Shown in pieces: positions 44,583-63,027 of a DNA stretch of 64,000 nt; the stretch's first letter is position 1; each line of letters starts with the position of its first letter. This DNA comes from Halomarina salina (GTDB taxonomy: Archaea > Halobacteriota > Halobacteria > Halobacteriales > Haloarculaceae): contig NZ_JALLGW010000002.1 in the NCBI RefSeq assembly GCF_023074835.1, positions 558,001 to 622,000 of the forward strand, read 5' to 3'. The position numbers and the translations under genes are program-made. The notes beneath the pieces are model-generated. The model made no database searches. It was not told the DNA's origin and saw only the letters and a program-made list of their open reading frames with translations.

Positions 44583-44607
44583 GATAGACTTGTGCCGCGA
44601 GTCTATC
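44583..44607 (+). repeat. Cassette repeat 1 (collapsed short form)
   Basis: GATAGACT and AGTCTATC flank TGTGCCGCG, so only the outer arms remain. The stop codon of the minus-strand gene at 44606 overlaps its right arm. Confidence 0.8.
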
Positions 44608-44833
44608 ACTTGCTCTGCGTCGCCGAACTATCACGGTAGGTTCTGATTTTGTGTATGCCGTACACTGCAAGCCCTATCGAGAACACGTAATAAAGCAGCG
44701 CGGGCGACCCATCGTAGTAGCTCCCTGTCACGCGAACCTCCGCAAACGGGTGGCCGTAGGTCACCGCAAACCATACCGTTGAGAGGACGCCGACGAGGAC
44801 GCCTGAGATACCTCCCCGGAGCTGCTCGTCCAT
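44606..44833 (-). CDS. Small membrane protein, 75 aa
   Basis: MDEQLRGGISGVLVGVLSTV begins a first membrane helix, and LLYYVFSIGLAVYGIHKI forms the second; the loop between them is YGHPFAEVRVTGSYYDGSP. No family recognised. The stop codon lies inside repeat 1, and the minus-strand upstream region holds the TATA-like GCTATTTG. First cassette of the array. Confidence 0.6.
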   Translation of the reverse strand: MDEQLRGGISGVLVGVLSTVWFAVTYGHPFAEVRVTGSYYDGSPALLYYVFSIGLAVYGIHKIRTYRDSSATQSK

Positions 44834-44880
44834 GATAGTGAGTGTTCAGTACTGCATCACAAATAGCTACCTGACTACAC

Positions 44881-44943
44881 GATACACCCACGCTCTAAGT
44901 CTCTCGACCGGACCGAGTGAGCGACGCGTGCCGCGGGTCTATC
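44881..44943 (+). repeat. Cassette repeat 2 (full length)
   Basis: Full-length copy. The left end reads GATACACCC and the right end GGGTCTATC, so ACCC pairs with GGGT here where other copies pair ACTC with GAGT: a compensating change. The right end contains the stop of the 44939 gene. Confidence 0.9.
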
Positions 44944-45478
44944 GTTCGGAGACTGGTTCAAGGGTCGTTGACTCGGTGATGACAACCACTCCATCCGGGT
45001 CAGTCTCATAGACTTCCAGTCCCGCCCCACCTGTACTGGACTCGCCCTTCGAATATGTAATCCATATCCTCGCCCCCACGACCGCGAGCGTTCCGAGGAG
45101 GTTCTCCTGCGTGTGGTTGTCAACCAGTTCTGATGCAGTTCCGGGTGGAAAGTCCTGATATACCACTGACCGGGCCGGTGATGGGGCGACCGGGCGAACG
45201 GTGACTTCCCGACCCTCCGTTTCGACGGGCAGCTCGTCGGGTACGGTGTGGAAGTCCAGATAAATCGACTGCTCGTCCACCTCACGGTCCCAGCGTGGCT
45301 CCTCTGTGACGGAATGAGCGTAGTACCCCACCTGATGCTCGCCGTCGCTGACCAGCACTGCGTCTCCTGACGAGATTCCCAACTGGTCCATCACTGCTGG
45401 GTGGAGCCGACACCACCCCTTCTGGACGTCTCCGATGAACTGGCGAGCGATTCGCAGGTGAAGCTTCGACTCGGCCAT
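44939..45478 (-). CDS. Orphan CDC48/VAT N-domain-like (double-psi beta-barrel) protein
   Basis: The start at 45478 (MAESKLHLRIARQFIGDVQK) gives 179 aa. FIGDVQKGWCRLHPAVMDQL followed by GISSGDAVLVSDGEHQVGYY strongly resembles the N-terminal domain of CDC48/VAT AAA ATPases, with the aspartate, arginine and GD turn of the first barrel half. There is no AAA ATPase domain; the C-terminal part (GTLAVVGARIWITYSKGESS) is unassigned. It could be a substrate-adaptor mimic or regulator of CDC48. Its stop lies in repeat 2. Confidence 0.6.
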   Translation of the reverse strand: MAESKLHLRIARQFIGDVQKGWCRLHPAVMDQLGISSGDAVLVSDGEHQVGYYAHSVTEEPRWDREVDEQSIYLDFHTVPDELPVETEGREVTVRPVAPSPARSVVYQDFPPGTASELVDNHTQENLLGTLAVVGARIWITYSKGESSTGGAGLEVYETDPDGVVVITESTTLEPVSER

Positions 45479-45533
45479 TGAGGTAGAGTTTGACAACGAA
45501 CACCAAGACGGTTGCCCTGAACCGTATCGAAGT

Positions 45534-45594
45534 GATACACCCACGCTCTACGTCTATCGAACGGGCAGAGTGAACGACGTGTACTGCAGTGAGG
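45534..45594 (+). repeat. Cassette repeat 3
   Basis: Left arm GATACACCCA, loop CACGCTCT, right arm TACGTCTATC; the distal end is degenerate (ACTGCAGTGAGG). It lies between the divergent genes starting at 45478 and 45630. Confidence 0.85.
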
Positions 45595-45629
45595 AACCTA
45601 CAAATCAATTGTACCTCTACTGAACAATT

Positions 45630-45908
45630 ATGAACCGCTCTCATCATGAGCCCAGCTCGGACAAGCTGGGCATTCCGCTTCCAGCTATCGTCGGCGGCAT
45701 ACTCTTTGGCCTGACACCGACAGTGCTTCTCATCTACCGAGTGAGACGAGGCGGCCCGGTACCACGCTGGGTGTTCGTGGTCGCACCGTTCAGTGCGCTG
45801 TTCCCGCTATTCATGGCGTATGCGGAATTGAAATTCCGGTGCGACGAGGAGTTTCGCCAGAAGGCCTACGAGGTACACCAGCGACACAAGGAGAACACGC
45901 AGCGATAG
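45630..45908 (+). CDS. Small two-helix membrane protein, 92 aa
   Basis: MNRSHHEPSSDKLGIPLPAI leads into a first helix (VGGILFGLTPTVLLIYRV), a basic RRGGPVPR loop, a second helix (VFVVAPFSALFPLFMAYAEL), and a charged tail. No family recognised. The stop TAG is supplied by the GATAG start of repeat 4. Confidence 0.6.
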   Translation: MNRSHHEPSSDKLGIPLPAIVGGILFGLTPTVLLIYRVRRGGPVPRWVFVVAPFSALFPLFMAYAELKFRCDEEFRQKAYEVHQRHKENTQR

Positions 45909-45953
45909 ACTCACGCTCTCAGTCTATCGATAGACACGTGCCGCGAGTGTATC
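45904..45953 (+). repeat. Cassette repeat 4
   Basis: GATAGACTCA, CACGCTCT loop, TCAGTCTATC, then a shortened middle and GTGCCGCGAGTGTATC. It overlaps the stop of the preceding gene. Confidence 0.9.
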
Positions 45954-45997
45954 ATTCACCACAGAAGATACTTATCATGGATTGACTAAATTCGGAT

Positions 45998-46426
45998 ATG
46001 AAGCGCCGTGCCCTCCTCGCTGTCGGCTGTAGTGCCGCACTCGCCCTGAGTGGCTGCATTGGCAACACGAACAATCCGGGAGGTCAGACAAGCACTGCAG
46101 CGGTAGAGTCACCATCTACTGAAAACAGGACTGTGACACAGTTCTACAGGACGGCTATCTACTCCAAGAATTACACAAACGAGGCAGTGGAGGCAACTGT
46201 CCGTCTTGAGGGTCCACAAGAGACGTTGGTGCATGAGACACTTTCTCTCGAATCTGGTGAGGATGTCCGATTCAATGTAGAGCTACGACATCGGGTGAAG
46301 TACTACGTCATCGTCGAAGTCGATTCAAACCCGACTCAGCAACCAGTAACTCCTGATGGGGGGTTCGGTGGCATTGAAGTATTTTTTGAGGATGACGGTG
46401 TTGCAGTAGGTTCTGTCTGGAAGTAG
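45998..46426 (+). CDS. Lipoprotein, 142 aa
   Basis: MKRRALLAVGCSAALALSGC is a signal peptide with lipobox LSGC; a Thr/Ser/Asn linker follows. The core (TVTQFYRTAIYSKNYTNEAV, VEATVRLEGPQETLVHETLS) looks like a beta-sandwich. TATA-like CTTATC lies 27 bp before the ATG. Some features resemble the 46628 product (both carry a VTQ beta segment and a vertebrate-like Ig pattern is possible), but homology is uncertain. Confidence 0.68.
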   Translation: MKRRALLAVGCSAALALSGCIGNTNNPGGQTSTAAVESPSTENRTVTQFYRTAIYSKNYTNEAVEATVRLEGPQETLVHETLSLESGEDVRFNVELRHRVKYYVIVEVDSNPTQQPVTPDGGFGGIEVFFEDDGVAVGSVWK

Positions 46427-46509
46427 TCCGACGTCCCATAGACAGGTCTACGGCGAAAGCATGCTTTCCGAGAGGTCATCAGAATAGTCGGCCTCGGTCC
46501 GAGATTTCT

Positions 46510-46572
46510 GATACACTCACGCTCTGCGTGTATCGAATGGACCGAGTGAGCGACCCGTACAGCGAATCCATC
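46510..46572 (+). repeat. Cassette repeat 5
   Basis: GATACACTCA, CACGCTCT loop, TGCGTGTATC. GATACAC and GTGTATC pair fully, unlike the GATAGAC/GTCTATC form: compensating G/C swap. Confidence 0.9.
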
Positions 46573-46627
46573 ACCGAGTACTTCGATTCACAGAAAGGTA
46601 CTTACCGAAATTTACGAATAGCAGCAT

Positions 46628-47107
46628 ATGAATCGACGCGCCCTCCTCACGTCGTTGAGTATTCTGCCAGCCTCAGCTTCCGCGGGGTGTACGTCACTCG
46701 GTCGAGAACTATTCGGGACGGACGACGCTGAGACGCCAGACCCGCTGTTCCTTCAGAACGACGTCGATGAGGTTCACGTGCTCACAGTCACAGTAACTCA
46801 ACCTGCAACTGAGACCACGCTCATCGAGGGAGCGTTCAGGCTCCCCGGACGACACTTCGTTCGATTCCCCGAGATTGGCGTGACGGGTGAAACGTACACT
46901 ATTCGAGCGTCTACCGTGGATGGAGCGTCCGTCGAGGAACGTTGGATGCCGGACCCGTGTTCAGCGGTCACAGGACAGGCAGCCGTCATTCGCGTTACCT
47001 CATCCGGGTTGAGATACGACCAGAACGGCTGTGACGTGTATACTCAGCAACCATCGTTCGAACTCTCACCTGAGGAAGCAGCAGTCACCAGTTCGGGAAG
47101 TGAGTAA
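46628..47107 (+). CDS. Lipoprotein-like exported protein, 159 aa
   Basis: MNRRALLTSLSILPASASAG, then C-TSLG, gives a signal sequence and lipobox-like SAGC. The body (VDEVHVLTVTVTQPATETTL, then FPEIGVTGETYTIRASTVDG) is predicted beta-rich with two later cysteines (PDPCSAV, NGCDV) that could form a disulfide. TATA-like CTTACC lies 27 bp upstream, identical in spacing to the previous cassette. Confidence 0.65.
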   Translation: MNRRALLTSLSILPASASAGCTSLGRELFGTDDAETPDPLFLQNDVDEVHVLTVTVTQPATETTLIEGAFRLPGRHFVRFPEIGVTGETYTIRASTVDGASVEERWMPDPCSAVTGQAAVIRVTSSGLRYDQNGCDVYTQQPSFELSPEEAAVTSSGSE

Positions 47108-47137
47108 GCGACAATCCTCGATTCGTCCCTTCATGTT

Positions 47138-47184
47138 CGACTCACGCTCTGAGTCGCTCGTTCGACGCGTGCCACGAGTGTATC
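47138..47184 (+). repeat. Cassette repeat 6 (arm variant)
   Basis: Arms CGACTCA and TGAGTCG pair perfectly around CGCTC; the usual GATAGACTCA/TGAGTCTATC has changed on both sides together. Ends GCCACGAGTGTATC. Confidence 0.85.
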
Positions 47185-47238
47185 GGTGGCCAGCGAGCGC
47201 CCGAAAGCTTATTCGATAACACATTGACACGCAACTGA

Positions 47239-47727
47239 ATGAGCTACGATTGGTCCCGTAGAACGTCCCTTCAGGCGGCGTGGGGCATTGGAGTCGTCAG
47301 TGTGGTCGCTGTGTACGTGGTCAGTGTGTTCTGGACGTACTATGGGTTGCAGTCGGCGGGATATCTCGCCCTCGGGGTTACGCTCGGCGTTCCACTGCTT
47401 GCTCTCGTGAGTGGCCCCACAGGAATTTGGCAACGTCGAACCGTCTTCGCATTGTTCGTATTCGGTGTAGTTGCCCTCATCGTTGGGGTCATCGGGTCAG
47501 GAGTGGTGAGTGCGCTCACTGCACCAGTGAACCCCTCAGAGTACTACTACGGGTTCGACTACGACTGGACCACCAACACGCTCCGATTCGGACTCACCCG
47601 AACAGGAGCGGTCTACGACAGCACTGTTCATCCAAATCGAGGGTCCGTACTACTCGGTGCACTCGTCATCGCACTGGGTCTCTATGGCCGACTCCCAGAA
47701 CGGTGGGTGGGCCAGATACAGGAGTGA
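47239..47727 (+). CDS. Membrane protein with about four helices, 162 aa
   Basis: MSYDWSRRTSLQAAWGIGVV begins the first helix; further helices run near residues 37-58, 68-92 and 135-152. An external-looking loop, NPSEYYYGFDYDWTTNTLRF, precedes the last helix. TATA-like CTTATTCG lies 31 bp upstream. The stop TGA is the TGA of the TGATAG that begins repeat 7. Confidence 0.62.
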   Translation: MSYDWSRRTSLQAAWGIGVVSVVAVYVVSVFWTYYGLQSAGYLALGVTLGVPLLALVSGPTGIWQRRTVFALFVFGVVALIVGVIGSGVVSALTAPVNPSEYYYGFDYDWTTNTLRFGLTRTGAVYDSTVHPNRGSVLLGALVIALGLYGRLPERWVGQIQE

Positions 47728-47780
47728 TAGACTCACGCTCTGGGTCTATCAAAACCGGCAAGCGATGCGACGAGTGTATT
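47726..47780 (+). repeat. Cassette repeat 7 (second subtype)
   Basis: GATAGACTCA, CACGCTCT, TGGGTCTATC, then AAAACCGGCAAGCGATGCG, a different middle from the main class. Repeats 24, 26 and 30 share CCGGCAA or CGGCAA in the same place. Confidence 0.85.
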
Positions 47781-47907
47781 TCGACCAGCTATAGTACGAT
47801 TCTGCTGTTAGAGCCGTGGCGTATTTGTAGTTACACCCACTGGTCGCCTCTCAACTTTCGAATAGTGTGGCTGTGGGTGGGAATTTGATGTTCGGCGCGT
47901 ATCGCTC

Positions 47908-48084
47908 CTACTGACGTGCATTCTCCACCATTCCATAGATAATCGCAATGGAGGCGCCCAAGACTAGCGGTGAATCGGAAATCGGAAGCAGGTCCATCAC
48001 GAGAACGACGCTTACGCTCACCACAATCAACGACCCACACATCGAGGCGAGTCGTCTCCAAGAGGGAAGAGCGTCGAATCGCAT
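47908..48084 (-). CDS. Small membrane protein, 58 aa
   Basis: Reads MRFDALPSWRRLASMCGSLI at the N-terminus, with one helix at about residues 15-33 and a second (LVLGASIAIIYGMV) at 40-53. TATA-like GATTTATCC lies upstream on the minus strand. It is the only plausible gene in this interval; low complexity is absent, which supports it. Confidence 0.5.
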   Translation of the reverse strand: MRFDALPSWRRLASMCGSLIVVSVSVVLVMDLLPISDSPLVLGASIAIIYGMVENARQ

Positions 48085-48176
48085 ATGTAGTATTCAAACC
48101 GGGTGGATAAATCGATTCTGCTGACAGCTCCAATCCATCACACTTGCCAGCGCAGCGGACAACCGTCTTCCTGCCC

Positions 48177-48227
48177 GGTAGACCCACGCTCTGAGTCTTT
48201 CGAACGAGCGTGCGACGTGTGTGTCGA
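48177..48227 (+). repeat. Cassette repeat 8 (degenerate)
   Basis: GGTAGACCCA, CACGCTCT, TGAGTCTTTC, then a shortened right half ending GTGTGTGTCG. The remaining gap to 48396 contains TATA-like ACGTATATTTAA (about 48353) for the next gene and nothing else recognised. Confidence 0.75.
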
Positions 48228-48396
48228 TAATGGTGATAGGTCAACGTTAGTAGAAGTGTCTGGCCGGGCCTTTAGGTGAGTTGCCATGCCTTGTGGTCAC
48301 AGTTCGATATCCCTCGGTAGGACTCACAGCGTTTCGCCAGATGATGGACAGAAACGTATATTTAATCAAATTGGTAAACTCTTCACAGCCAATAGT

Positions 48397-50036: not shown

Positions 50037-50037
50037 T

Positions 50038-50100
50038 GATAGACCCACGCTCTGAGTCTCTCGACCGGACCGAGTGAGCGACGCGTGCCGCGAGTGTATC
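50038..50100 (+). repeat. Cassette repeat 9 (full length)
   Basis: GATAGACCCA, CACGCTCT, TGAGTCTCTC, the ACCGGACCGAGTGAGCGACG middle, and GTGCCGCGAGTGTATC: one of the most complete copies, almost identical to repeats 2 and 20. Confidence 0.93.
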
Positions 50101-50106
50101 GGTCGA

Positions 50107-50319: not shown

Positions 50320-50930
50320 GGCGAATCAATACGTCACTACGAGATGGTTCGACCTTTGATTCTCGGAGCGTGAGAAGACTCGGCATGAGTGCCTTTGCGT
50401 GACCAACGCTCTGCTCAACACCCTACTGCCTCCACTACCGGACAGGTCGTACTTGGGGAACGGCGCAGCACATCCATCGGGAGCGAATAGAACGGGGGGC
50501 CGATGGGGACGAGGTAAACAACCGAGTGCCTCTGACAGCGTGGCCCCAGTTGGGGCATACTCAGCCTTGGCATGTAAGGCTACTGCTATGAACAATCTCA
50601 TGAGATAACGATACCACCCAGTAGTAGAAGCACCCTCTGTTAAATCGCGCAACACGTAGATACGTTTATATATCCAGTATCCTGAACCACCGCTGTCCGG
50701 TGGCGTCGCCGAGGGTCGTTCACAAGTGGACGCCCGTGGTCGTCTTGGCCGATGCACCAGCGACGGACGGTGACGCCACGGACATTCCTTGCTCGACACG
50801 ACCGCTAATAACTCTGTGTGACCGCCCGATGTACAACCCGCCCGCACCGTAGGTCAGTTAGTCTCGTGAGACACTCACGCTCTGCGTCTCTCGTTCAGTT
50901 CAATCAACGGAATGGTCGTAGACTGGGGGT
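50320..50930. other. 611-bp gap: unidentified, possible decayed mobile or RNA segment
   Basis: No convincing gene. A minus-strand reading frame ending at 50326 (MRLFIAVALHAKAEYAPTGA) is weakly protein-like but unfamiliar. A strong TATA-like TTTATATATCC near 50665 precedes a GC-rich structured stretch (CCACCG/CGGTGG hairpin near 50691-50707) of about 120 nt that could be a small RNA. A degenerate half repeat (ACGCTCTGC) is at about 50405. Confidence 0.3.
50868..50900 (+). repeat. Cassette repeat 10 (left half only)
   Basis: GAGACACTCA, CACGCTCT, TGCGTCTCTC. GAGACAC and GTCTCTC pair partially; the right half is missing. It lies 30 bp before the stop of the 50931 gene. Confidence 0.75.
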
Positions 50931-51251: not shown

Positions 51252-51312
51252 CTCACGATATCTCGCAGTGCTGGACTGGTAGGATTTTTGGCCGCTTCGA
51301 CGAGACGCGACT

Positions 51313-51375
51313 GATTGACTAACGCTCTGCGTGTATCAAACGGACCGAGTGCGTGACGCGTGCCGCGAGTATATC
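51313..51375 (+). repeat. Cassette repeat 11 (full length)
   Basis: GATTGACTAA, ACGCTCT loop (first base changed), TGCGTGTATC, CGGACCGAGTG middle, GTGCCGCGAGTATATC. Confidence 0.88.
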
Positions 51376-51563: not shown

Positions 51564-52232
51564 ATGATAGTTAGATTCAGCGTCCAAGAACGAACGCTCC
51601 TTCAGGCCCTTCGGGAGGTGCCTACGACGAGGGTTGTCTGGGAGGACATGAACATCACGGAGGATGGTGGAGTGGTGTTGTTGTTCTGGGCAGAGTCGGA
51701 TGATTTCGAGGCGTTCGAGGCAGCGATGCAGAACGACCCGACCGTCGAGTCCCCGCGCACGGTTACGACGTTTCGCAACCGACGGCTGTACCAAGCCGAA
51801 TACGTGGGGGGTGGGAGAGCGAAACGGGCACATTCTGCGCTCGTCGAGACAGGAGCCATCATTCAGGAGTGTGTGGGCACGCACAACGGGTGGACCTTAC
51901 AGATTGCCTTCCCGAGTCACGACGCCCTCCAACAGTACTATACGATTTTCGACGAGTCAGACATCCAGTTCACGCCCTTGGAGAAGTACGAGCAATCCGC
52001 TGACCGACTGCTCGATGAGTTCGGGCTCACTGCGAAACAAGAACAGATGCTGGCACTCGCTTCGGACCGAGGCTATTTCGACGTTCCCCGGAAGACGGAC
52101 CTCGACGAACTCGCCGATGAGCTGGGTATCTCTCACCAAGCGGCATCTGAACGGCTTCGCCGAGCGATGGACATCTTGGTTGGTCGGTCGGTTGGCACTG
52201 CCACAGCGTCCACATCGGAATACGAACACTGA
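51564..52232 (+). CDS. HTH-10 (bacterio-opsin activator type) regulator
   Basis: The start at 51564 (MIVRFSVQERTLLQALREVP) gives 222 aa. The N-terminal sensor-like region is followed by FGLTAKQEQMLALASDRGYF, VPRKTDLDELADELGIS and QAASERLRRAMDILV (residues about 152-210). Same architecture as the core gene at 10842, but lower third-position GC. The stop TGA is inside repeat 12. Confidence 0.85.
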   Translation: MIVRFSVQERTLLQALREVPTTRVVWEDMNITEDGGVVLLFWAESDDFEAFEAAMQNDPTVESPRTVTTFRNRRLYQAEYVGGGRAKRAHSALVETGAIIQECVGTHNGWTLQIAFPSHDALQQYYTIFDESDIQFTPLEKYEQSADRLLDEFGLTAKQEQMLALASDRGYFDVPRKTDLDELADELGISHQAASERLRRAMDILVGRSVGTATASTSEYEH

Positions 52233-52276
52233 GTGACACTTTGGGTCACTCGCTCGACGCGTACCATGCATCTCTC
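52231..52276 (+). repeat. Cassette repeat 12 (strongly diverged)
   Basis: GAGTGAC and GTCACTC still pair perfectly although neither matches the usual GATAGAC; the loop is ACTTTGG, so the usual CACGCTCT is lost. The right part CGACGCGTACCATGCATCTCTC is recognisable. Confidence 0.6.
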
Positions 52277-52580: not shown

Positions 52581-52640
52581 CACGGCAGTTTTTCCTAAGG
52601 CGTTAGTCCCGAGCTGAGGAGAGTGTGACGAACTGTACTC

Positions 52641-52702
52641 GATTGACCACGCTCTGCGTCCATCGAACGAACCGCGTGACCAATATGTGCCGCGAGTGAT
52701 TC
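52641..52702 (+). repeat. Cassette repeat 13
   Basis: GATTGACCA, CACGCTCT, TGCGTCCATC; GTGCCGCGAGTGATTC at the right end overlaps the stop of the minus-strand gene at 52701. Confidence 0.85.
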
Positions 52703-52880: not shown

Positions 52881-52987
52881 ATTACTCTGGAACCTTCAGC
52901 GGAAGTGTCTATCAAGTATCTCCATGACGGGAGGGGATTCTCGAAGGTGTTTAAGTGAGTTCGTCGCTGCGCGAAGGAACGAAGACT

Positions 52988-53044
52988 GATAGACTCACGC
53001 TCTGCGTCTCTCGAACGGGCCAAGTAAGCGATGCGGGAGATTTA
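52988..53044 (+). repeat. Cassette repeat 14
   Basis: GATAGACTCA, CACGCTCT, TGCGTCTCTC, AACGGGCCAAGTAAGCGATG; the right end is eroded. Nine bases from the stop of the 53053 gene. Confidence 0.85.
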
Positions 53045-53478: not shown

Positions 53479-53589
53479 ATCCAATTTCTGATATTGTTGA
53501 GTAAATAGTTTGTGTATGCACAGATGGCCTCCGATTAGACCAACTTGTATTGATGCGGGGAATGTGTCTTTGTGTGGATTTCTGGTGAC

Positions 53590-53652
53590 GACAGACCCAC
53601 GCTCTCAGTCTCTCGATAGGGCCGCGTGAGCGACGCGTACCGCGAGTCTAAC
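53590..53652 (+). repeat. Cassette repeat 15 (full length)
   Basis: GACAGACCCA, CACGCTCT, TCAGTCTCTC, GGGCCGCGTGAGCGACGCG, TACCGCGAGTCTAAC. Confidence 0.9.
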
Positions 53653-53943: not shown

Positions 53944-53987
53944 ATCTTTCCAGTTAGTGATGGTTGATAAATACTTTCCGGGATGCT

Positions 53988-54031
53988 GATACACTCACGC
54001 TCTCAGTGTCTCAACGGATAGTTTGACGCAC
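53988..54031 (+). repeat. Cassette repeat 16 (shortened)
   Basis: GATACACTCA, CACGCTCT, TCAGTGTCTC, then a reduced right half ending GTTTGACGCAC. It separates divergently oriented genes. Confidence 0.82.
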
Positions 54032-54068: not shown

Positions 54069-54572
54069 ATGAACCGCCGCCGGTTTCTCGGGGCGACAGG
54101 GGGCCTCCTCACGGCACTCGCGGGGTGTACCGCACTCGGTGGTGATGGACCACAGGGTCACCCCATGAGCGCGGGATACGAAGACAATCCCATCGTGTAC
54201 TCTAACGGCACCCTGCAGTTGACCGGCCCTGACCAACCGGTCCGTGCCGGTGACCACGTCGAATTCACGCTCAGGAACGTCGGCGATGAGACCATCGAGA
54301 GCGGCTGTGGAAGTTCGTGGACGATTCAGCGGAACGACGGTGAGTCGTGGCGCGAACTGATTTATACGACTGCCCGAGGTGGCGCTGGCTGCGCAGCCCC
54401 ACTCGCACCGGGCGAATCGCGGACGACACGACTCACGCTCGACAAAGCTGGTATCGAGGACAGCATCGGCGGCACACTCGTCGAGGAGTTCACGTCGGGA
54501 CAGTACCGGTTCGTGTGGCTCGGCACCGACCCGTTTCTCGCTGTTCGGTTCCGTATCGACGCCTCGCAGTGA
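54069..54572 (+). CDS. Tat lipoprotein with Ig-like fold, 167 aa
   Basis: MNRRRFLGATGGLLTALAGC is a twin-arginine signal ending in lipobox LAGC. The domain (YEDNPIVYSNGTLQLTGPDQ, PVRAGDHVEFTLRNVGDETI, ESGCGSSWTIQRNDGESWRE) has the beta-strand pattern and two cysteines of bacterial Ig-like domains. The stop TGA is the TGA of the repeat that follows. TATA-like TACTATTGG about 33 bp upstream. Confidence 0.72.
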   Translation: MNRRRFLGATGGLLTALAGCTALGGDGPQGHPMSAGYEDNPIVYSNGTLQLTGPDQPVRAGDHVEFTLRNVGDETIESGCGSSWTIQRNDGESWRELIYTTARGGAGCAAPLAPGESRTTRLTLDKAGIEDSIGGTLVEEFTSGQYRFVWLGTDPFLAVRFRIDASQ

Positions 54573-54633
54573 TAGACTCACGCTCTGAGTGTATCGACCG
54601 GACCGAGTGAGTGACCCGTGCCGCGAGTGTAAC
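54571..54633 (+). repeat. Cassette repeat 17 (full length)
   Basis: GATAGACTCA, CACGCTCT, TGAGTGTATC, CGGACCGAGTGAGTGACCCG, GTGCCGCGAGTGTAAC. It overlaps the preceding stop. Confidence 0.93.
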
Positions 54634-54668: not shown

Positions 54669-55286
54669 ATGCCAAAACGACGGGCCCTCCTGATTAGTCT
54701 GGTCATACTCTGTGTCGTCCTTTCGGGGTGTGGCGGGCTCAACACACAATCCACTCCTCAGGCTACAGTAACACCCGGTAGTGTCCCCACTGACCAGCAG
54801 GCATCCGTTACGACAACAGAACCGACGTCGACAGGCACTCTCACGCGGCCATTGCTCGGCATAGAGATTCAAAACGAACAGAATCGCTCCTACCAACTGC
54901 AGATGTTCTTCACGAAGGAACGCCTCTCCTCGGTCACTCTTCACTCGCGGACTGGGACAGTGAATCATTCGGTGGACAAGGACGATTCAATGTCGATACA
55001 ACTACCGAACGTCAGGCCCGCCGATAACATCAGTCGTGTCGTTCCGGGACATGAACCATCCCGAGTACTTAATTCGAGCATCTCGGGTGACGACGTTCGT
55101 TTTGGCCGGGTCCCCTCAGAGGAAGAGGTCTCGGTGCTTGTCGTCCTTCGAGCGAGTAATCAACCGACACGAGTTTCCGCAGTAGCCGGGCTTCAGTGTA
55201 CGGATGAGCGACGGCTTGATGGACTCCGTATCGACATCGTTGATGAGGACGCACTCACAGTCGGCGGGAGCTGCACAAGTGAATGA
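54669..55286 (+). CDS. Lipoprotein, 205 aa
   Basis: MPKRRALLISLVILCVVLSG followed by C gives a lipobox (LSGC) with a hydrophobic core longer than in the Tat-type cassettes, so Sec export is likely. A Thr/Ser-rich linker to residue about 60 precedes a beta-rich domain (LGIEIQNEQNRSYQLQMFFT). Two late cysteines. The stop TGA is supplied by the repeat's TGATAC. Confidence 0.68.
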   Translation: MPKRRALLISLVILCVVLSGCGGLNTQSTPQATVTPGSVPTDQQASVTTTEPTSTGTLTRPLLGIEIQNEQNRSYQLQMFFTKERLSSVTLHSRTGTVNHSVDKDDSMSIQLPNVRPADNISRVVPGHEPSRVLNSSISGDDVRFGRVPSEEEVSVLVVLRASNQPTRVSAVAGLQCTDERRLDGLRIDIVDEDALTVGGSCTSE

Positions 55287-55346
55287 TACACTCACGCTCT
55301 ACGTCTATCGAACGGGTCGGCGAACGACGCGTGCCGCGAGTCTACC
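55285..55346 (+). repeat. Cassette repeat 18
   Basis: GATACACTCA, CACGCTCT, TACGTCTATC, AACGGGTCGGCGAACGACGC, GTGCCGCGAGTCTACC. Overlaps the preceding stop. Confidence 0.92.
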
Positions 55347-55627: not shown

Positions 55628-55674
55628 GCCGGTTTCTACGATAGTGTCTGCTCACTGTCTCGCTGTTAGACCCA

Positions 55675-55727
55675 CGCTCTAAGTCTCTCGACCGGACCGA
55701 GTGAGCGACGCGTGCCGCGAGTGTATC
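55675..55727 (+). repeat. Cassette repeat 19
   Basis: GTTAGACCCA, CACGCTCT, TAAGTCTCTC, ACCGGACCGAGTGAGCGACG, GTGCCGCGAGTGTATC; from the loop onward nearly identical to repeats 2 and 9. Confidence 0.92.
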
Positions 55728-55775: not shown

Positions 55776-56198
55776 ATGAGACGGCTCCGGGAGTGGGGAG
55801 AGGCAGTATATACTCGATTTGAGGCGATGCCCGGGGGGTACGTGATGGGGCCGATTCAACTCCTGTTCGTGCTTCCGCTTCTCTTAGGAGCGGCGCTCAT
55901 CGACTTCCTCGTCGGCGAGACGTTCAGCGGGTATCTCTGGGTCATCTTGCTGGGGGCGAATGTCGCATTGGTACTCCTCTTTCTCGTTCTTGATGTCGGC
56001 ATTGAGCAGTTGTTTGCACGACTCCCGAACCCAGCGAGAGAGGGAGCAGGGGCGTACCTGTTGGTCGCTGCCTCCTTCATGTTCGTTGCCGCTGCCTTGG
56101 TGTACGCGACTGCCAACTCCGTCGAACCGGCAGTGTTGTTCGTCGGACTTGGCGTCGTAGCCATCGGCCGGTATGTCATCGACGAACGTGCAGCGTAA
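55776..56198 (+). CDS. Membrane protein with four helices, 140 aa
   Basis: The start at 55776 (MRRLREWGEAVYTRFEAMPG) gives a basic amphipathic leader, then helices near residues 25-45, 50-70, 88-108 and 113-133. IGRYVIDERAA ends the protein. The TAA stop lies in the GTAAGAC start of the following repeat. Confidence 0.62.
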   Translation: MRRLREWGEAVYTRFEAMPGGYVMGPIQLLFVLPLLLGAALIDFLVGETFSGYLWVILLGANVALVLLFLVLDVGIEQLFARLPNPAREGAGAYLLVAASFMFVAAALVYATANSVEPAVLFVGLGVVAIGRYVIDERAA

Positions 56199-56257
56199 GA
56201 CTCACGCTCTGGGTCGCTCAAACGGGCCGAGCGAGAGACCAGTGCCGCGAGTGTAAC
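56195..56257 (+). repeat. Cassette repeat 20
   Basis: GTAAGACTCA, CACGCTCT, TGGGTCGCTC, AACGGGCCGAGCGAGAGACC, GTGCCGCGAGTGTAAC. Overlaps the preceding stop. Confidence 0.9.
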
Positions 56258-56546: not shown

Positions 56547-56558
56547 AAAGCGGTCGAC

Positions 56559-56621
56559 GATACACTCACGCTCTGAGTCGGTCAAACACTTCCAATGGGA
56601 GACGCGTGCTGCGAGTCTATC
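56559..56621 (+). repeat. Cassette repeat 21
   Basis: GATACACTCA, CACGCTCT, TGAGTCGGTC, a divergent middle, CGTGCTGCGAGTCTATC. Wedged between two convergent stop codons (56546 and 56624). Confidence 0.88.
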
Positions 56622-56623
56622 GC

Positions 56624-56920
56624 TCAGGCAGTTGGTCGGTTCCGCCGAATACTCCACCCCAGATACGTGAATCCAGCGACGACGAAGACGGGGAGGATGA
56701 TTTCCAACCGACCGAGAAGGAAGGCGATGGAGAGCAGACCACCGAGAACGCCGACGACAGTCGCGTGTTCGCGGTCACCTCGCCGAACGAGGAAAGAGGC
56801 GGCACAAATCGCGGCGACACTCACGAGTCCGAAGAACAACTGGCCCTCAATGACCACCGCATACGCCAGCACGAGTATCGAGAGGAGGGCTGTCGCAACG
56901 ATTGCGCTGTAACGGTCCAT
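56624..56920 (-). CDS. Membrane protein with four helices, 98 aa
   Basis: MDRYSAIVATALLSILVLAY, VVIEGQLFFGLVSVAAICAA, then a charged RRGDREHA turn, VVGVLGGLLSIAFLLGRL and IILPVFVVAGFTYLGWSI. TATA-like GACCTATACC is upstream on the minus strand. Function unknown. Confidence 0.62.
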   Translation of the reverse strand: MDRYSAIVATALLSILVLAYAVVIEGQLFFGLVSVAAICAASFLVRRGDREHATVVGVLGGLLSIAFLLGRLEIILPVFVVAGFTYLGWSIRRNRPTA

Positions 56921-56964
56921 ATTCTAACCTATTTCTTGGAAGGGTATAGGTCTTCTCGCAAACT

Positions 56965-57013
56965 GATACACTCACGCTCTGGGTCTCGCATTCGATGCGT
57001 GCCGCGTGTGTAC
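56965..57013 (+). repeat. Cassette repeat 22
   Basis: GATACACTCA, CACGCTCT, TGGGTCTCGC, shortened middle, GTGCCGCGTGTGTACC. Confidence 0.85.
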
Positions 57014-57084
57014 CATTGCAACTCAGACGCATCCTTCATGTCCCCCAAAAGCACTTACCAGTTATTGCAGTAATATTAGCAAGT

Positions 57085-57684: not shown

Positions 57685-57705
57685 CCACCTGAGCGACGAC
57701 GAACT

Positions 57706-57740
57706 GATAGACTCACGCTCTGAGTCTATCATTACCGGCA
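57706..57740 (+). repeat. Cassette repeat 23 (second subtype, left half)
   Basis: GATAGACTCA and TGAGTCTATC form a perfect 10-bp stem around CGCTC, followed by ATTACCGGCAA. The rest of the gap to 57922 holds TATA-like GGTTATTTTG (about 57892) for the next gene. Confidence 0.88.
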
Positions 57741-57922
57741 AATATCTTCCATCCCCGGATTCGTGCCCGTCTACTAATCGCCAATATCGCCATCTCGACA
57801 TACTCCGACGACTCACTCATCTCCTGAGCGACGAATCCGATACCTGAATTACGCATCGATAGAATGGTCGTCACGCTGACTAGTCCGGTAGGGTTATTTT
57901 GTTGACACAGTATACATCTCCC

Positions 57923-58778: not shown

Positions 58779-59747
58779 ATGGCAGACGACTTCCCCGACT
58801 ACCTGGACGTCGACTACAGCGCCGGCGAGGGCGAGTCGCCCGAGGACTACCCCACGCTGGAGGACAAGATCGAGAAGGCCATCGAGGTCACGCGCATCGG
58901 CCTCGAACAGTACGAGAACCCCGCCATCATGTGGACCGGTGGGAAGGACTCGACGCTGACGCTGTACTTCGTGAAGGAGGTCGCCGAGCAGTTCGACATG
59001 GAGGTGCCCCCCGCCATCTTCATCGACCACTACCAGCACTTCGACGAACTGCACGACTTCGTCGACCACTGGGCCGAGGAGTGGGACCTCGACGTCGTCT
59101 ACGCCCGGAACACCGACGTCGGCGACTACGTCGAGGCGAACGGTCTCACGCCGGGCGACGACATCCCCATCGACGAGCTCAACGAGCAGAACCAGCACCA
59201 CGTCCGCAACCTGCTGGAGTACGAGGAGGACACCTTCCCGTTCCTGCTCGACACCTACGTCGGCAACCACCTGCTGAAGACCGTCGCGCTCAACAACGCG
59301 CTGGAGGAGCACGACGTCGACGGTATCCTCTCGGGCATCCGCTGGGACGAGCAGGAGGCGCGCGCCGACGAGACGTTCTTCTCGCCGCGCCACGACCCCG
59401 ACGTCTACCCGCCCCACGACCGCATTCAGTCCATCCTCCAGTTCGACGAGGCCGCCGTCTGGGAGGCGTTCTGGAACTTCGTCGTCCCGGAGACCGTCGA
59501 GGGCTACCCCGCGGGCCACGTCCCGCAGGACTACGACGACCTGCCGAACGACCTCACCCACGAGGACATCCCGGTCAGCCCGAAGTACTTCGCGGGCTTC
59601 CGCTCGCTCGGGAGCGAGATCTCGACCGACAAGTCCGCCGAGGAGCCCGCCTGGCTCCAGGACCTCGAAGGCACCACCGAGCGCGCGGGCCGCGCCCAGG
59701 ACAAGGAGGACCTGATGGAGCGCCTGCGCGACCTCGGGTACATGTAA
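58779..59747 (+). CDS. PP-loop phosphoadenosine-phosphosulfate-reductase-like protein (copy 1)
   Basis: The start at 58779 (MADDFPDYLDVDYSAGEGES) gives 322 aa. The PP-loop IMWTGGKDSTLTLYFVKEVA near residues 47-66 and IFIDHYQHFDELHDFV identify the PAPS reductase/ATP sulfurylase subunit CysD superfamily. YGVN-type cysteines of true PAPS reductase are absent, so an adenylyl-transfer or thiolation role is as likely as sulfate reduction. A paralogue begins at 63539, and the pair was probably adjacent before the array inserted between them (inference). Confidence 0.85.
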   Translation: MADDFPDYLDVDYSAGEGESPEDYPTLEDKIEKAIEVTRIGLEQYENPAIMWTGGKDSTLTLYFVKEVAEQFDMEVPPAIFIDHYQHFDELHDFVDHWAEEWDLDVVYARNTDVGDYVEANGLTPGDDIPIDELNEQNQHHVRNLLEYEEDTFPFLLDTYVGNHLLKTVALNNALEEHDVDGILSGIRWDEQEARADETFFSPRHDPDVYPPHDRIQSILQFDEAAVWEAFWNFVVPETVEGYPAGHVPQDYDDLPNDLTHEDIPVSPKYFAGFRSLGSEISTDKSAEEPAWLQDLEGTTERAGRAQDKEDLMERLRDLGYM

Positions 59748-59891
59748 ACGCACGTTTTTCTTCGTCGGGGTCGCTCCGCGACCCGCTCCTCGAAAAACCT
59801 GCACTAAAAAGGCCGCTCACTCGCTCCGCTCGTTCGCGGTACGACAGAACGACAGTCCGTTTTTCCTGCAATCGACCGCCGACTGGTGAGT
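59748..59891. terminator. Convergent terminator region
   Basis: On the plus strand, CGTTTTTC at about 59755 and CCGTTTTTC at about 59861 give T-tracts for the PP-loop gene; on the minus strand GTTTTTCG (from CGAAAAAC) and TTTTTAG give them for the hydrolase. GGGTCGCTCCGCGACCC forms a hairpin near 59768. Confidence 0.6.
59813..59842 (-). repeat. 30-bp repeat, inverted copy of 33564-33593
   Basis: Identical over 30 bases to 33564-33593 in opposite orientation. Within the convergent gap between the PP-loop and hydrolase genes. Confidence 0.7.
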
Positions 59892-60839: not shown

Positions 60840-61022
60840 GCCGGACCGTTCGGTTCCTCGACTGATAAGGTCGCCGCGAGTGACGGTGTCGCCGTTGTAG
60901 CGCGGTAGCGAATCTGTGCGTCCCAGTGAACACGGCCGCCGGGGCCGAGTCCACAGAAGTACTCCTCCCGACGATCGATTACCCAGGCACTCTCGTTCAC
61001 GTCCTTCGCACGTGATTCTCCG

Positions 61023-61047
61023 GACAGACTCGTGTCGCGAGTGTCTC
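61023..61047 (+). repeat. Cassette repeat 24 (collapsed short form)
   Basis: GACAGACTC and GAGTGTCTC flank GTGTCGC, the same collapsed layout as repeat 1. The right arm contains the stop of the minus-strand 61046 gene. Confidence 0.8.
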
Positions 61048-61225
61048 AGTCTCGTCTCGGGACGACGGCACTCACTTCGACGTCGTAGCGGTTGCCAGCA
61101 GGGGTGGTGTTGACCTCGTAGCCCCCTTCAACATCAACGCCGCCCAGTTCGGCGGCGTTGATGAGTTCTGCCAGTCGGTCGGTGAACGCGTCCCTGCTGT
61201 CGATGGTATCGGTGGTGTCGGACAT
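61046..61225 (-). CDS. Member of the 59-70-aa cassette protein family (copy 3)
   Basis: MSDTTDTIDSRDAFTDRLAE, LINAAELGGVDVEGGYEVNT, TPAGNRYDVEVSAVVPRRD; 59 aa. Closely related to the 52701-52880 product and more distantly to 50107-50319. It belongs to the array's second block, so the family bridges both blocks. Its stop is within repeat 24. Confidence 0.75.
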   Translation of the reverse strand: MSDTTDTIDSRDAFTDRLAELINAAELGGVDVEGGYEVNTTPAGNRYDVEVSAVVPRRD

Positions 61226-61458
61226 GGCTCATCGAGAACGAGCAATCCGCGATTCAGGGGTAGTGCACAGCGAAGTCGGTCTTCACAGGGAGGATACCAC
61301 GGCTCACAGGAACCGTGAGTCAATCGTTCACCCTGACCATCGAAGGCCACTCGGATAAGCTTATGTACTGGGTCACCACGCCGTGCCCCCCACGCTGAAC
61401 GACCGAGGCACCAGGCATGCCGCATCCTTAACAAAGGCGAGTGGTAATCCCACGCACC

Positions 61459-61695
61459 ATGGATGGGGTCGAGCCCACAGACGGCGTGCCGCTCACCGGG
61501 ATAGAGCGGGAGGTACTGTACACCGCGGTCGACGAAGGGTACTTCGGGGTTCCGCGGCGCATCTCGACAGTCGAACTCGCCGAGGCGGTCGGGGTCTCGA
61601 CTACCGCACTCACCGAACACCTCCGCCGTGGCATGACGAAGGTGCTGCGCGAGAAGATGCAGGAGGAACGTCCGTCCAGCAGGACCGAACGATAG
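61459..61695 (+). CDS. Stand-alone HTH-10 DNA-binding protein, 78 aa
   Basis: The start at 61459 (MDGVEPTDGVPLTGIEREVL) gives only the C-terminal HTH-10 domain of Bat-type regulators: YTAVDEGYFGVPRRISTVEL then AEAVGVSTTALTEHLRRGMT. No sensor region. It could compete with or partner full-length HTH-10 regulators. The TAG stop lies in the GATAG of repeat 25. A 233-bp region upstream contains no other gene. Confidence 0.72.
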   Translation: MDGVEPTDGVPLTGIEREVLYTAVDEGYFGVPRRISTVELAEAVGVSTTALTEHLRRGMTKVLREKMQEERPSSRTER

Positions 61696-61738
61696 ACTCA
61701 CGCTCTCTGTCTTCCAATCCCGGCAAACGACGTTCGCC
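61691..61738 (+). repeat. Cassette repeat 25 (second subtype)
   Basis: GATAGACTCA, CACGCTCT, TCTGTCTTCC, then AATCCCGGCAAACGACG. It sits between two convergent stop codons (61695 inside it, 61740 two bases beyond). Confidence 0.85.
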
Positions 61739-61739
61739 T

Positions 61740-62294
61740 TCATTTTACGGTGGGGCGATTTGACGTGGCGACCGGCTTCGACTCGGGGGGTCGAACAAAC
61801 AGCCACCAGCCGACCAGTATCCACGACAGGCCGTAGACTGAGACGCCGAACGAAAACAGCGGTGTCACCAGCGCATTCACGAGTGGGTCAAGCGGGAGCG
61901 CGGCGCTGAAGCCGACCGCGAGCCACGACGGCATCGCGTCCAGTTTCCAGAGTCGATGGGCGAGCTTTCCGGTGCCGAGTGCGACCAGCACCATCCCAAC
62001 ACCTGCTGGGAGTCCGGTGAGGAGAACGAACGCGATACTTCCCGCCGTCAGGCGGGCCCACGTGAAGATGAGGGCCGCGACGAGCAAGAACCCCAGTCCG
62101 CTGGCCATGAGCACGATATCTGACCGGCTGGTGTCGTAGGTGCGGTGAATCCCGTACACACCACCGGCGAGGAGCAGTGGGAGGATGCCAACCAGCAGTT
62201 CGTAGGTCGGATAGATACCGTCCAGGAGCGGAACGAGGGCCCACAACAGACCGCCGCCGATAGCGGTTATCCCAGAGAGACGGCGCAGTTCCAT
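61740..62294 (-). CDS. Multi-helix membrane protein, 184 aa
   Basis: The start at 62294 (MELRRLSGITAIGGGLLWAL); a GTG four codons upstream is the alternative. Five to six hydrophobic segments, with YGIHRTYDTSRSD and AHRLWKLDAMPSW loops. Resembles small haloarchaeal integral membrane proteins of unknown function. Its stop adjoins repeat 25. Confidence 0.62.
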   Translation of the reverse strand: MELRRLSGITAIGGGLLWALVPLLDGIYPTYELLVGILPLLLAGGVYGIHRTYDTSRSDIVLMASGLGFLLVAALIFTWARLTAGSIAFVLLTGLPAGVGMVLVALGTGKLAHRLWKLDAMPSWLAVGFSAALPLDPLVNALVTPLFSFGVSVYGLSWILVGWWLFVRPPESKPVATSNRPTVK

Positions 62295-62374
62295 AGGACC
62301 ACTCACATGTCGTGTGGTAAACTCTTTCTGACAGGCGATTCGTGATATCTCCAGATACTGGGACCGTTCGGTTC

Positions 62375-62437
62375 GATAGACTCACGCTCTGCGTGTATCG
62401 AACGGGTCGAGTGAGCGACGTGTGTCGAGAGTCAAGC
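62375..62437 (+). repeat. Cassette repeat 26 (full length)
   Basis: GATAGACTCA, CACGCTCT, TGCGTGTATC, AACGGGTCGAGTGAGCGACG, TGTGTCGAGAGTCAAGC. Confidence 0.9.
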
Positions 62438-62488
62438 AGAGCTATCGGGGAGAGAAGGTACTTGTCAGCCGAGTTGTGACTCCCTGAT

Positions 62489-62680
62489 ATGATAGCAATT
62501 GATGTCGACGACGTCGTCACGATGGGGTTCGCGTTCTTCGGGAGCGTCGGCACTGCTGCTATCGGAGCAGCGCACGACGTCCCGTATCCGCTCGCTGTCC
62601 TTCCCGGTCTGCTGATTGGAGCGGCTATCGGTACCTACCTACTCGGCCCGCTGTCGACCCCCCGCGAGGAAACTGGGTGA
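62489..62680 (+). CDS. Small two-helix membrane protein, 63 aa
   Basis: MIAIDVDDVVTMGFAFFGSV, then YPLAVLPGLLIGAAIGTYLL. TATA-like GTACTTGTC lies about 28 bp upstream. No family recognised. Confidence 0.58.
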   Translation: MIAIDVDDVVTMGFAFFGSVGTAAIGAAHDVPYPLAVLPGLLIGAAIGTYLLGPLSTPREETG

Positions 62681-62709
62681 CGTCGAACTGCGGTCGAGCA
62701 GAGTGAAGT

Positions 62710-62771
62710 GAGAGACCCACGCTCTGCGTGTATCGGCGGGTAGAGCGGACGACTCGTGCCGCAAGTGTAAC
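62710..62771 (+). repeat. Cassette repeat 27
   Basis: GAGAGACCCA, CACGCTCT, TGCGTGTATC, GGGTAGAGCGGACGACTCG, TGCCGCAAGTGTAAC. Confidence 0.88.
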
Positions 62772-62816
62772 AGTGGACGAACGCTTACCTGTCATCGGAT
62801 GGTACGTTTCGATACC

Positions 62817-62987
62817 ATGCCCAAACCCAGTCGGCGCGTCTTTGCTCTACTGTCGCTCTGTTACGCAGTTCTGGTGCTGGTGGCTATTGACGAAGGGGAC
62901 CTCGCTAAAGCCACTCAATGGACAGCTATCGGTGTAACGGTGACTTTCGGGTTGTGGTGGTGGAACTCCGAGAGCCCAACCAACTGA
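62817..62987 (+). CDS. Small two-helix membrane protein, 56 aa
   Basis: The start at 62817 (MPKPSRRVFALLSLCYAVLV); an in-frame ATG at 62799 is possible. Second helix ATQWTAIGVTVTFGLWWW. TATA-like CTTACC lies 33 bp before 62817. The stop TGA is the TGA of the TGATAC starting repeat 28. Confidence 0.55.
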   Translation: MPKPSRRVFALLSLCYAVLVLVAIDEGDLAKATQWTAIGVTVTFGLWWWNSESPTN

Positions 62988-63027
62988 TACGCTCACGCTC
63001 TCAGTGTATCGATGCCCCTGTGCTGCA
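62986..63027 (+). repeat. Cassette repeat 28 (shortened)
   Basis: GATACGCTCA, CACGCTCT, TCAGTGTATC, then a short right half GTGCTGCAG. Confidence 0.85.

Follow-up and report, generated by a model that had tools for sequence, protein, structure and literature searches.

Paired palindromic sites in Halomarina salina as probable junctions of an integron-like gene-cassette system

Introduction

A 64,000-nt stretch of the genome of the salt-loving archaeon Halomarina salina (hereafter the window) carries a repeat whose outer edges coincide with the stop codons of genes on both strands, which raises the question of whether the repeat joins gene cassettes or forms a structure at the 3' ends of RNAs. 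Sequence comparison points to the former, and we assign a probability of roughly 0.8 to the recombination model as a whole, in which the repeat would join the gene cassettes of a system resembling an integron.

Results

Analysis of the repeat revealed two distinct 25-bp palindromic site types, L and R, each with inverted arms of about 9 bp flanking an asymmetric 7-bp centre. The site alignment showed per-position conservation of 96-100% for the L centre, ACGCTCT (n=157), and 92-99% for the R centre, GTGCCGC (n=131), with more variation in the arms of both types (consensus GATAGAC / GTCTATC). The sites of the window are listed in Table 1; none was found at 1-44 kb or in 20 mononucleotide shuffles of 44-64 kb, and more sites lie past the window end, to about 628.3k on contig C2 of the genome.

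Table 1. Sites, junctions and cassette genes, in coordinates of the 64,000-nt window
Feature	Position	Strand	Remark
Solitary R	44583..44607	+	Left end of array; upstream TTTCTTTC..CATGACTCAGCTG
Cassette gene, 75 aa	44606..44833	-	Stop TGA inside R
Composite L-13-R	44880..44943	+	
Cassette gene, 179 aa	44939..45478	-	Stop TAG inside R; weak CDC48_N match, under curated cut-off
L, R partner decayed	45533..45558	+	
Cassette gene	45630..45908	+	Stop TAG inside L
Composite L-0-R	45903..45953	+	
Composite L-13-R, R decayed	46509..46572	+	
Composite L-0-R	47134..47184	+	
Cassette gene	47239..47727	+	Stop TGA inside L
L	47725..47750	+	Group end; then ACCGGCAAGCGATGCG
L	48176..48201	+	
Composite L-13-R	50037..50100	+	
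L	50867..50892	+	
Composite L-13-R	51312..51375	+	
Cassette gene, BAT/HTH_10 transcription regulator	51564..52232	+	Stop TGA
Decayed L-R junction	52230..52266	+	At stop of 51564..52232 gene; family D5; TGAGTGACACTTTGGGTCACTC
Diverged composite	52636..52702	+	
L, R partner decayed	52987..53012	+	
Composite L-13-R	53589..53652	+	
L	53987..54012	+	
Cassette gene	54069..54572	+	Stop TGA inside L; weak Ig-like match, under curated cut-off
Composite L-13-R	54570..54633	+	
Cassette gene	54669..55286	+	Stop TGA inside L
Composite L-12-R	55284..55346	+	
Composite L-13-R	55664..55727	+	
Cassette gene	55776..56198	+	Stop TAA inside L
Composite L-13-R	56194..56257	+	
Composite L-13-R	56558..56621	+	
Cassette gene	56624..56920	-	
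Composite L-0-R	56964..57014	+	
Solitary L, perfect palindrome arms	57705..57730	+	Array end; then ACCGGCAA
Solitary R	61023..61047	+	Second group starts
Cassette gene	61441..61695	+	Stop TAG inside L
L	61690..61715	+	Then CCGGCAAACGACG
Composite L-13-R	62374..62437	+	
Composite L-12-R	62709..62771	+	
Cassette gene	62799..62987	+	Stop TGA inside L
L	62985..63010	+	
Diverged L	63375..63400	+	Then CGGCAACCGACG

The arrays are built of units in the order R-gene-L, chained in a common orientation. Neighbouring sites less than 2.5 kb apart shared their orientation in 136 of 139 pairs throughout the H. salina genome and in 102 of 108 pairs at the other Halomarina loci. Successive pairs were mostly R-far-L and L-near-R, with an L-to-R spacer between chained cassettes of usually 13, 0 or 55-57 bp; the exceptions among the 136 same-strand pairs of H. 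salina (26 L-L and 6 R-R) are read as decay or L-to-L units. A cassette holds one short gene, lone units are also numerous, and the unit at loci L058-L060 is inverted relative to its flank motif. ORFs were found in 105 of 110 R-to-L cassettes from the loci of six Halomarina genomes and one Halobium locus (cassettes below 120 or above 2600 bases were excluded) with our own codon-usage caller, which is crude for small ORFs; the five cassettes lacking a scored ORF were left out of the counts. These genes showed no prevailing orientation relative to the sites, 57 lying on one strand and 48 on the other. Among ten cassette proteins of the window that were scanned, none was a tail fibre or a transposase, and a PADLOC defence-gene search of 10 window proteins gave 0 matches.

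The sequence-only reading had placed 12 stop codons within the edge of the repeat, and a base-by-base check confirmed every one, on the plus strand (45908 TAG, 47727 TGA, 52232 TGA, 54572 TGA, 55286 TGA, 56198 TAA, 61695 TAG and 62987 TGA) and on the minus strand (44606 TGA, 44939 TAG, 52701 TGA and 61046 TGA). For 52701 and 61046, the corresponding ORFs span just 59 codons from the first ATG, which makes them weak genes, and the stop at 52232 adjoins a decayed copy of the site (TGAGTGACACTTTGGGTCACTC). A further stop, 61740, had been counted as lying near a repeat; it falls outside the L of its group and is not a cassette stop. In the larger set, 27 of 105 stops overlapped a site, and 35 overlapped one or lay within 10 bp, compared to 13.4 expected for genes sliding within their cassettes, while no start (0 of 105) lay within 10 bp of a site. 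The distance to the site was shorter at the 3' end than at the 5' end for 88 of the 105 genes (p about 1e-12), and restriction to caller scores of at least 15 left 14 of 56 stops compared to 6.7 expected. The preference for 3' ends, whose loss in a larger copy set was to have spoken against the pattern, persisted when the window was removed (26 of 89).

The claim that the repeat is fixed at gene 3' ends nevertheless proved too strong: the excess of stops at sites is real, and roughly one in three cassette genes ends at a site. These genes do so because the cassettes are compact and the Halomarina arms happen to spell TGATA(G/C) when read away from the cargo in either direction, so that an arm often serves as the stop codon. 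In Haloprofundus arrays, a single gene listed in the RefSeq calls ends in a site; stop overlap is a Halomarina trait and is not general to the system.

Comparison of homologous array segments aligned at 84% identity or more yielded 61 free alignment ends, 33 of which fell in the same site type and register in both partners, although such windows make up 4.2% of bases; the other 28 did not lie in a common site. The breakpoints resolved to the centres of both L and R, placing crossovers in both half-sites, and identity began or ended at the centres at base level for the pairs L050/L051, L067/L077, L067/L075 and L058/window. For L067/L077, the flanks were conserved as far as the centre and the cargo was different. 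Cassettes were also shared between loci. The window cassette at 44583-44905 is 99% identical to the lone unit L058 on contig 1 of the same genome, with the mismatches at the ends of this pair falling in the outer arms; that at 56597-56964 (gene 56624..56920) shares 91% identity with L160, a single unit in another Halomarina (G001); and the L060 cassette is 93.7% identical to its counterpart in genome G002.

At one convergent intergenic locus, the cassettes differ among H. salina (G000), G002 and G007, and the locus is empty in G006. The empty-locus comparisons were made between species and so place the target sequence only approximately, and in that of L158 another repeated element is missing as well; the flanks of L058 were sought in other Halomarina genomes and not found. 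A pattern search for a hybrid empty site (left half R, right half L) matched in 0 of 8 genomes, and no site-like place at the loci examined carried a hybrid R/L centre; direct R x L exchange is therefore unsupported. Matrices built for the same hybrid also let true L and R sites pass and so do not discriminate. Because the centres differ, a lone unit bearing both R and L at a wholly new place would need a rare event, or two.

A tyrosine recombinase gene (PF00589, the only Pfam-type match) lies between divergent R sites in H. salina, H. oriensis and H. rubra (genomes G000, G002 and G007) and in Halobium salinum. In H. salina, both of these R sites begin a group. Arrays extend away from the integrase in both directions. 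The H. salina gene is on contig 1, not on the contig of the window, whose array lacks an integrase; action there would be in trans. The protein is 41.6% identical to Int1 of phiCh1, a tail-fibre invertase. R, K, HxxR, W and Y, the presumed catalytic residues, were invariant in 13 relatives except for the His, present in 12 of 13. Up to an E value of 1, NCBIfam returned no model specific to integron integrases, only XerA/XerC/XerD-type models with weak scores, the best being the archaeal XerA model ("tyrosine recombinase/integron integrase") at 27 bits, where the cut-off is 220. In G002 and G007, which are different species, the integrase points in opposite directions with respect to a shared flank. 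By eye, the adjoining ORFs are lipoprotein- and membrane-protein-like.

Discussion

Array grammar, breakpoints resolved to the base, cassettes present at different loci, differing cargo at one locus and an integrase linked to matching sites are documented in these genomes and strongly support the cassette-junction reading. We infer that recombination takes place at the sites of Halomarina arrays, and the phiCh1-Int1-family integrase is most likely the enzyme that acts on them. In the model we propose, L and R would be 25-bp core sites of a tyrosine recombinase, bounding a cassette of one short gene on either strand with R at its left and L at its right, the L of one cassette adjoining the R of the next. 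The recombinase, supplied from the other contig, would exchange strands inside the 7-bp centres, with equal centres recombining in L-L and R-R pairs; direct site pairs would release or insert cassettes, probably through circles, inverted pairs would turn round the segment bearing the integrase, and double events would exchange the cargo flanked by R and L. The asymmetry of the centres would give every cassette within an array the same orientation, and the arms would often also supply the stop codon of a compact cassette gene. Such a system is presumably active now.

The other expectation of the sequence-only reading, a terminator or 3' UTR structure marking gene ends on both strands, would suit the palindromic arms and the overlap of stops with the repeat above chance. 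We rejected a hairpin or terminator since a test of the stems detected no covariation and an Rfam search matched no family; the single site orientation despite genes on both strands, a 7-bp centre conserved more than the arms, breakpoints inside the repeat and far fewer stops in the sites of the sister family also argue against an RNA element, making it extremely improbable. Shuffling of genes by homologous recombination between dispersed repeats, with no dedicated enzyme, is very unlikely: such repeats can provide homology and could explain some flank exchanges, but junctions often share no more than 25-65 bp, breakpoints fall at a conserved centre kept in more than 100 copies, orientation is strict, a recombinase is linked, and the layout is the same in other genera despite other site sequences.

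Mobile elements of known kinds fit more of the data. If R and L were the ends of non-autonomous transposons, mobilized by a transposase in trans and stacked into arrays by insertion beside existing ends, the numerous lone units, the presence of entire R-to-L units in unrelated places, the loci that other species have empty and the inverted unit at L058-L060 would follow; however, the outer-arm mismatches of the 99% pair place the exchange inside R and L, not at the outer edge, the L067/L077 flanks are conserved to the centre around different cargo, L-to-L units exist, and a tyrosine recombinase is linked to the sites while 0 of 10 scanned cassette proteins is a transposase, leaving this explanation unlikely. 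A true integron, with an archaeal IntI and attC sites recombining as folded single strands, would likewise have single-gene arrays, uniform site orientation, composites of two palindromic half-sites and an integrase by the array start. As single-stranded DNA, one composite takes up a fold roughly resembling that of attC, and the inner arms of composites pair slightly above shuffled sequences (p 0.001), a signal that junction classes can produce; yet the outer stem lacks covariation (p 0.94) and composites as a group have fold energies like those of shuffles. The core boxes of attC are RYYYAAC and GTTRRRY, and these are absent, the L and R consensus arms and centres differing from them. Together with crossovers in both half-sites rather than one, nearly equal numbers of genes on both strands, arrays to either side of the integrase and the NCBIfam results (XerA far under cut-off), this renders a true integron decidedly unlikely.

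Canonical integrons have been reported in archaeal metagenome-assembled genomes (Ghaly et al. 2022, PMC9668308), in an article whose text makes no mention of halobacteria, haloarchaea or halophiles. Integrons of bacteria and of these archaea share with the Halomarina arrays single-gene cassettes, one site orientation, composites that join two palindromic half-sites, a tyrosine recombinase beside the array start and some arrays lacking a local integrase. In contrast, the Halomarina recombinase is not an IntI by the models searched, the site consensus differs, two core sites with unlike centres both take crossovers, genes lie on either strand, arrays flank the integrase on both sides, and there is no clear support for single-strand folding. 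The system is thus integron-like in its presumed working and in its uniform site orientation, and differs from integrons in its integrase, its attC boxes and its gene orientation.

The Int1 module of phiCh1, phiH1 and ChaoS9 flips two tail-fibre genes (PMC6210493, PMC6471424, PMC8651126) and resembles the Halomarina system in its homologous recombinase and in a gene between inverted sites. Here, by comparison, the recombinase is associated with long arrays whose genes are unrelated, with no tail-fibre cargo among the ten window cassette proteins, and the phiCh1 record contained no L or R when scanned with the site matrices. Similarly, pieces of phiCh1, HCTV-5 and CGphi46 scanned with these matrices contained no sites. 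The pdif modules of Acinetobacter plasmids carry movable genes between short Xer-type sites that are single, alternate in orientation and are recombined by the chromosomal XerCD, unlike the two site types, fixed orientation and dedicated recombinase found here. In shufflons, one tyrosine recombinase, Rci, acts on several sites to invert alternative ends of one gene, whereas here entire genes change place.

We lean towards the broader proposal that haloarchaea may have a separate class of cassette-shuffling system that owes nothing to integrons, derived by conversion of a family of viral-type tail-fibre invertases to gene exchange. With two orthogonal core sites at every junction, a gene lying between an R and an L could be replaced through double exchange, which would amount to recombinase-mediated cassette exchange in nature. 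The system would extend over most of the order and supply a common pool of small genes, for the most part unknown and surface- or lipoprotein-like, with arms that in Halomarina double as stop codons on either strand. If so, it would be an integron-type gene-capture platform outside the integron lineage, of which we found no earlier description in haloarchaea within the open-access literature. It would help to account for the abundance of small orphan genes in haloarchaeal replicons and for their gene turnover, and would offer natural events for studying the passage of tyrosine recombinases from inversion to cassette exchange; relatives that are culturable and genetically tractable make direct testing feasible.

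Finally, matches to a sister site family occur in 197 of the 243 Halobacteriales genomes, strong ones in about 87 (best E <= 1e-10, counted by hand), and in none of the genomes sampled outside the order. Haloprofundus carries this sister family with the same grammar and integrases about 47% identical, other genera show the same layout with different site sequences, and many distant integrases are flanked by short inverted sites.

The array repeat comprises two sites

Position-matrix scans of the 4.46-Mb genome of this haloarchaeon of the genus Halomarina resolved the repeat into two different sites, not one: L (TGATAGACTCACGCTCTGAGTCTATC) and R (GAGCGACGCGTGCCGCGAGTGTATC), 25-bp palindromic cores in which inverted arms of ~9 bp enclose an asymmetric 7-bp centre. 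The centre is the most conserved part of both, at 96-100% per base in L (n = 157) and 92-99% in R (n = 131). Control scans found neither site in the window from 1 to 44 kb nor in array DNA shuffled 20 times. Groups of sites typically open with a lone R, continue with L-R composites and close with a lone L, the unit being R-gene-L and each composite joining the L of one cassette to the R of the next. The L-R spacer in 67 distinct composites was 13 bp in 30, 0 bp in 14 and 55-57 bp in 15, other lengths being few; TTTCTTTC..GTGACTCAGCTG, often found upstream of a lone R, and ACCGGCAATCGA, often found downstream of a lone L, are the two halves of a 56-bp junction. Of the pairs of adjacent sites, 136 of 139 share a strand in the window's genome, as do 102 of 108 at other Halomarina loci, whereas cassette genes occur on both strands (57 vs 48). 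A covariance model of the repeat matched 114 places in the window's genome at E <= 1, and 7 of the 59 genomes searched had matches, all in Halomarina, this one included. Three lone units are oriented as if the core could insert in either direction (see table).

Locations of sites, cassettes, stop codons and neighbouring repeats (L plus three digits, locus examined; G000, the window's genome, with the window at C2:558001-622000; G001, G002 and G004-G007, other Halomarina genomes; C, contig)
Feature	Location	Observation
Tandem R pair	L075:3383-3477	69 bp apart, beside the H. oriensis integrase; small duplication of array start
Inverted lone units	L058:8475-8797; L059; L060	Inverted relative to flank motif CAGCTG..GAAATAAA
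300-bp repeat, copy 1	window 58791-59090	77% identical to copy 2; within ORF with PAPS-reductase domain match, between both cassette groups
300-bp repeat, copy 2	window 63545-63844	Beyond both cassette groups
Minus-strand stops	window 52701; 61046	ORFs of 59 codons each from first ATG (2 of the 4 minus-strand cases)
Plus-strand stop	window 52232	Adjoins decayed repeat copy
Moved cassette	window 56597-56964	91% identical to lone unit in G001
Moved cassette	L060	93.7% identical to G002 C32
Locus B	L046, L155, L071, L174	Arrays between convergent stop codons; empty site in G006 reads TGAGTCTAC, similar to site arm
150-bp repeat	L158, about 7521-7674	Many places in four Halomarina genomes; beside cassette group, and missing together with it from the G000 empty locus
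Haloprofundus-type sites	G000:C5, about 35-88 kb	For example 81888-81986

Stop codons at the site edge

The sequence-only reading held that repeat edges supply or overlap the stops of plus- and minus-strand genes, and all 12 stop codons that it named lie in the repeat edge, with correct coordinates and codons. One of the four further stops that it placed within 10 bp, at 61740, is that of a gene sitting outside the cassette group. The proposed preference for gene 3' ends also held in a larger set of 110 R-to-L cassettes of 120-2600 bp, taken from loci in six Halomarina genomes and from a single locus of Halobium; 105 of these cassettes contained a scored ORF. The stop codon overlapped a site in 27 of the 105 genes and overlapped or lay within 10 bp of one in 35 (26 of 89 when the window is left out), compared with 13.4 of the 105 expected when each gene was slid within its own cassette; no start codon (0/105) lay within 10 bp of a site, and the gene end nearer to a site was the stop in 88. 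Both arms read TGATA(G/C) outward on either side of the cargo, and a compact gene therefore often terminates within an arm. In the arrays of Haloprofundus, few stops fall in a site (a single case among the listed genes), which argues that stop supply is not the core of the cassette system but a by-product or local refinement.

Alignment breakpoints and cassette movement

Among alignments of at least 150 bp and at least 84% identity between array fragments, 33 of the 61 free ends (those not at a fragment border) fell in the same site type and the same register in both partners, in windows that make up 4.2% of bases. At base level, the sequence shared by L050 and L051 begins exactly at ACGCTCT, and flank X, which adjoins the integrase, is 99.9% identical between G007 and G002 outward from the base adjoining the centre, the cargo inside being different. 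The first cassette of the window matches the lone unit L058 at 99% identity, with end mismatches in the outer arms. One convergent intergenic locus differs in its cassettes between G000, G002 and G007; in G006 it is empty, the two stop codons there being only a few bases apart. G004 and G006 are empty at the L060 locus, which is occupied by other units in G001 and G005, that of G005 identified by eye only. The 150-bp repeat beside the cassette group of L158 is possibly a MITE.

A tyrosine recombinase between divergent sites

Flank comparison showed that several site groups have outer flanks in common. Two relatives in the genus match records of H. oriensis JCM 16495 and H. rubra ZS-47-S. A tyrosine recombinase gene (Pfam PF00589, E about 1e-8; 285 aa in G000 C1) sits between divergent R sites in G000 C1, G002 and G007. 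Relics of it occur in G000 C4 and G007 C3, and the recombinase of Halobium salinum (77% identity) has divergent copies of R and L on its sides. Relative to the integrase, flank X lies on the 5' side in G007 and on the 3' side in G002. The residues expected to be catalytic are invariant across 13 relatives except for His (12/13), and three cysteines conserved within an insertion in the alignment of 13 integrases (C132, C142 and C145) are perhaps a metal-binding knuckle typical of the family. NCBIfam matches were weak and of Xer type only, and the closest characterised relatives are viral (phiCh1 Int1, 41.6%; ChaoS9 int1, 42.1%; HCTV-5, 50%). In phiH1 and phiCh1, inverted repeats lie on both sides of a central integrase, which switches tail-fibre genes (PMC6210493, PMC6471424, PMC8651126).

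We consider it most likely that L and R are two core sites of one recombinase, with the 7-bp centres setting partner and direction. The model would account for the uniform orientation of the arrays, the conservation of the centres, crossovers in both sites, L-to-L units and the absence of R/L hybrids. Recombination of L with L or R with R between direct copies would excise or insert a cassette, R with R between divergent copies would flip the integrase, and L with L together with R with R would swap cargo. The two-core-site model alone does not account for the arrival of a unit at a wholly new place; our guess is that a poor site is then used loosely.

Relation to integrons and wider occurrence

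This cassette system works like an integron but departs from integrons in integrase family, core-site consensus and gene orientation, and we give slightly better than even odds (about 0.55) to its being a separate class. As regards folding of the site as a single strand, the outer stems showed no covariation and the inner arms a weak signal. Such arrays were not found described for haloarchaea in the open-access literature searched, which takes in few subscription journals or preprints.

Short inverted sites of different sequence, such as CTGAATAGAGGGCGCGTATC, flank many of the more distant integrases (44-57% identity). When 2 mismatches at most were allowed, 14 other haloarchaeal genomes contained the pattern CTGMATASAGRGCGCGWATC, in up to 41 copies each; the reversed control pattern gave one match in total across the 16 genomes searched. 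Such sites make up composites of ~100 bp (TGCTGAATACACCCTCTGTATCTCGCAC, ~38 bp, GCTGAATACAGGGCGCGTATCGGTCAC) in Haloprofundus salinisoli and H. halobius, where they stand in arrays that share the R-gene-L grammar, with 120 of 123 neighbouring sites in one orientation. A sequence model of this composite, scored at no more than 16 places per genome, matched 197 of 243 genomes and 63 of 77 genera of the order at E <= 0.001, about 87 of the genomes, by hand count, at 1e-10 or better. Among 148 genomes sampled from the phylum, 20 matched, all in Halobacteriales, the window's order; this implies about 124 genomes outside it with no match to the model. Haloprofundus-type sites are also present in the window's own genome, where two cassette systems may coexist. 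On a megaplasmid of Halorubrum ezzemoulense, R and L of the Haloprofundus type enclose one gene adjoining an integrase.
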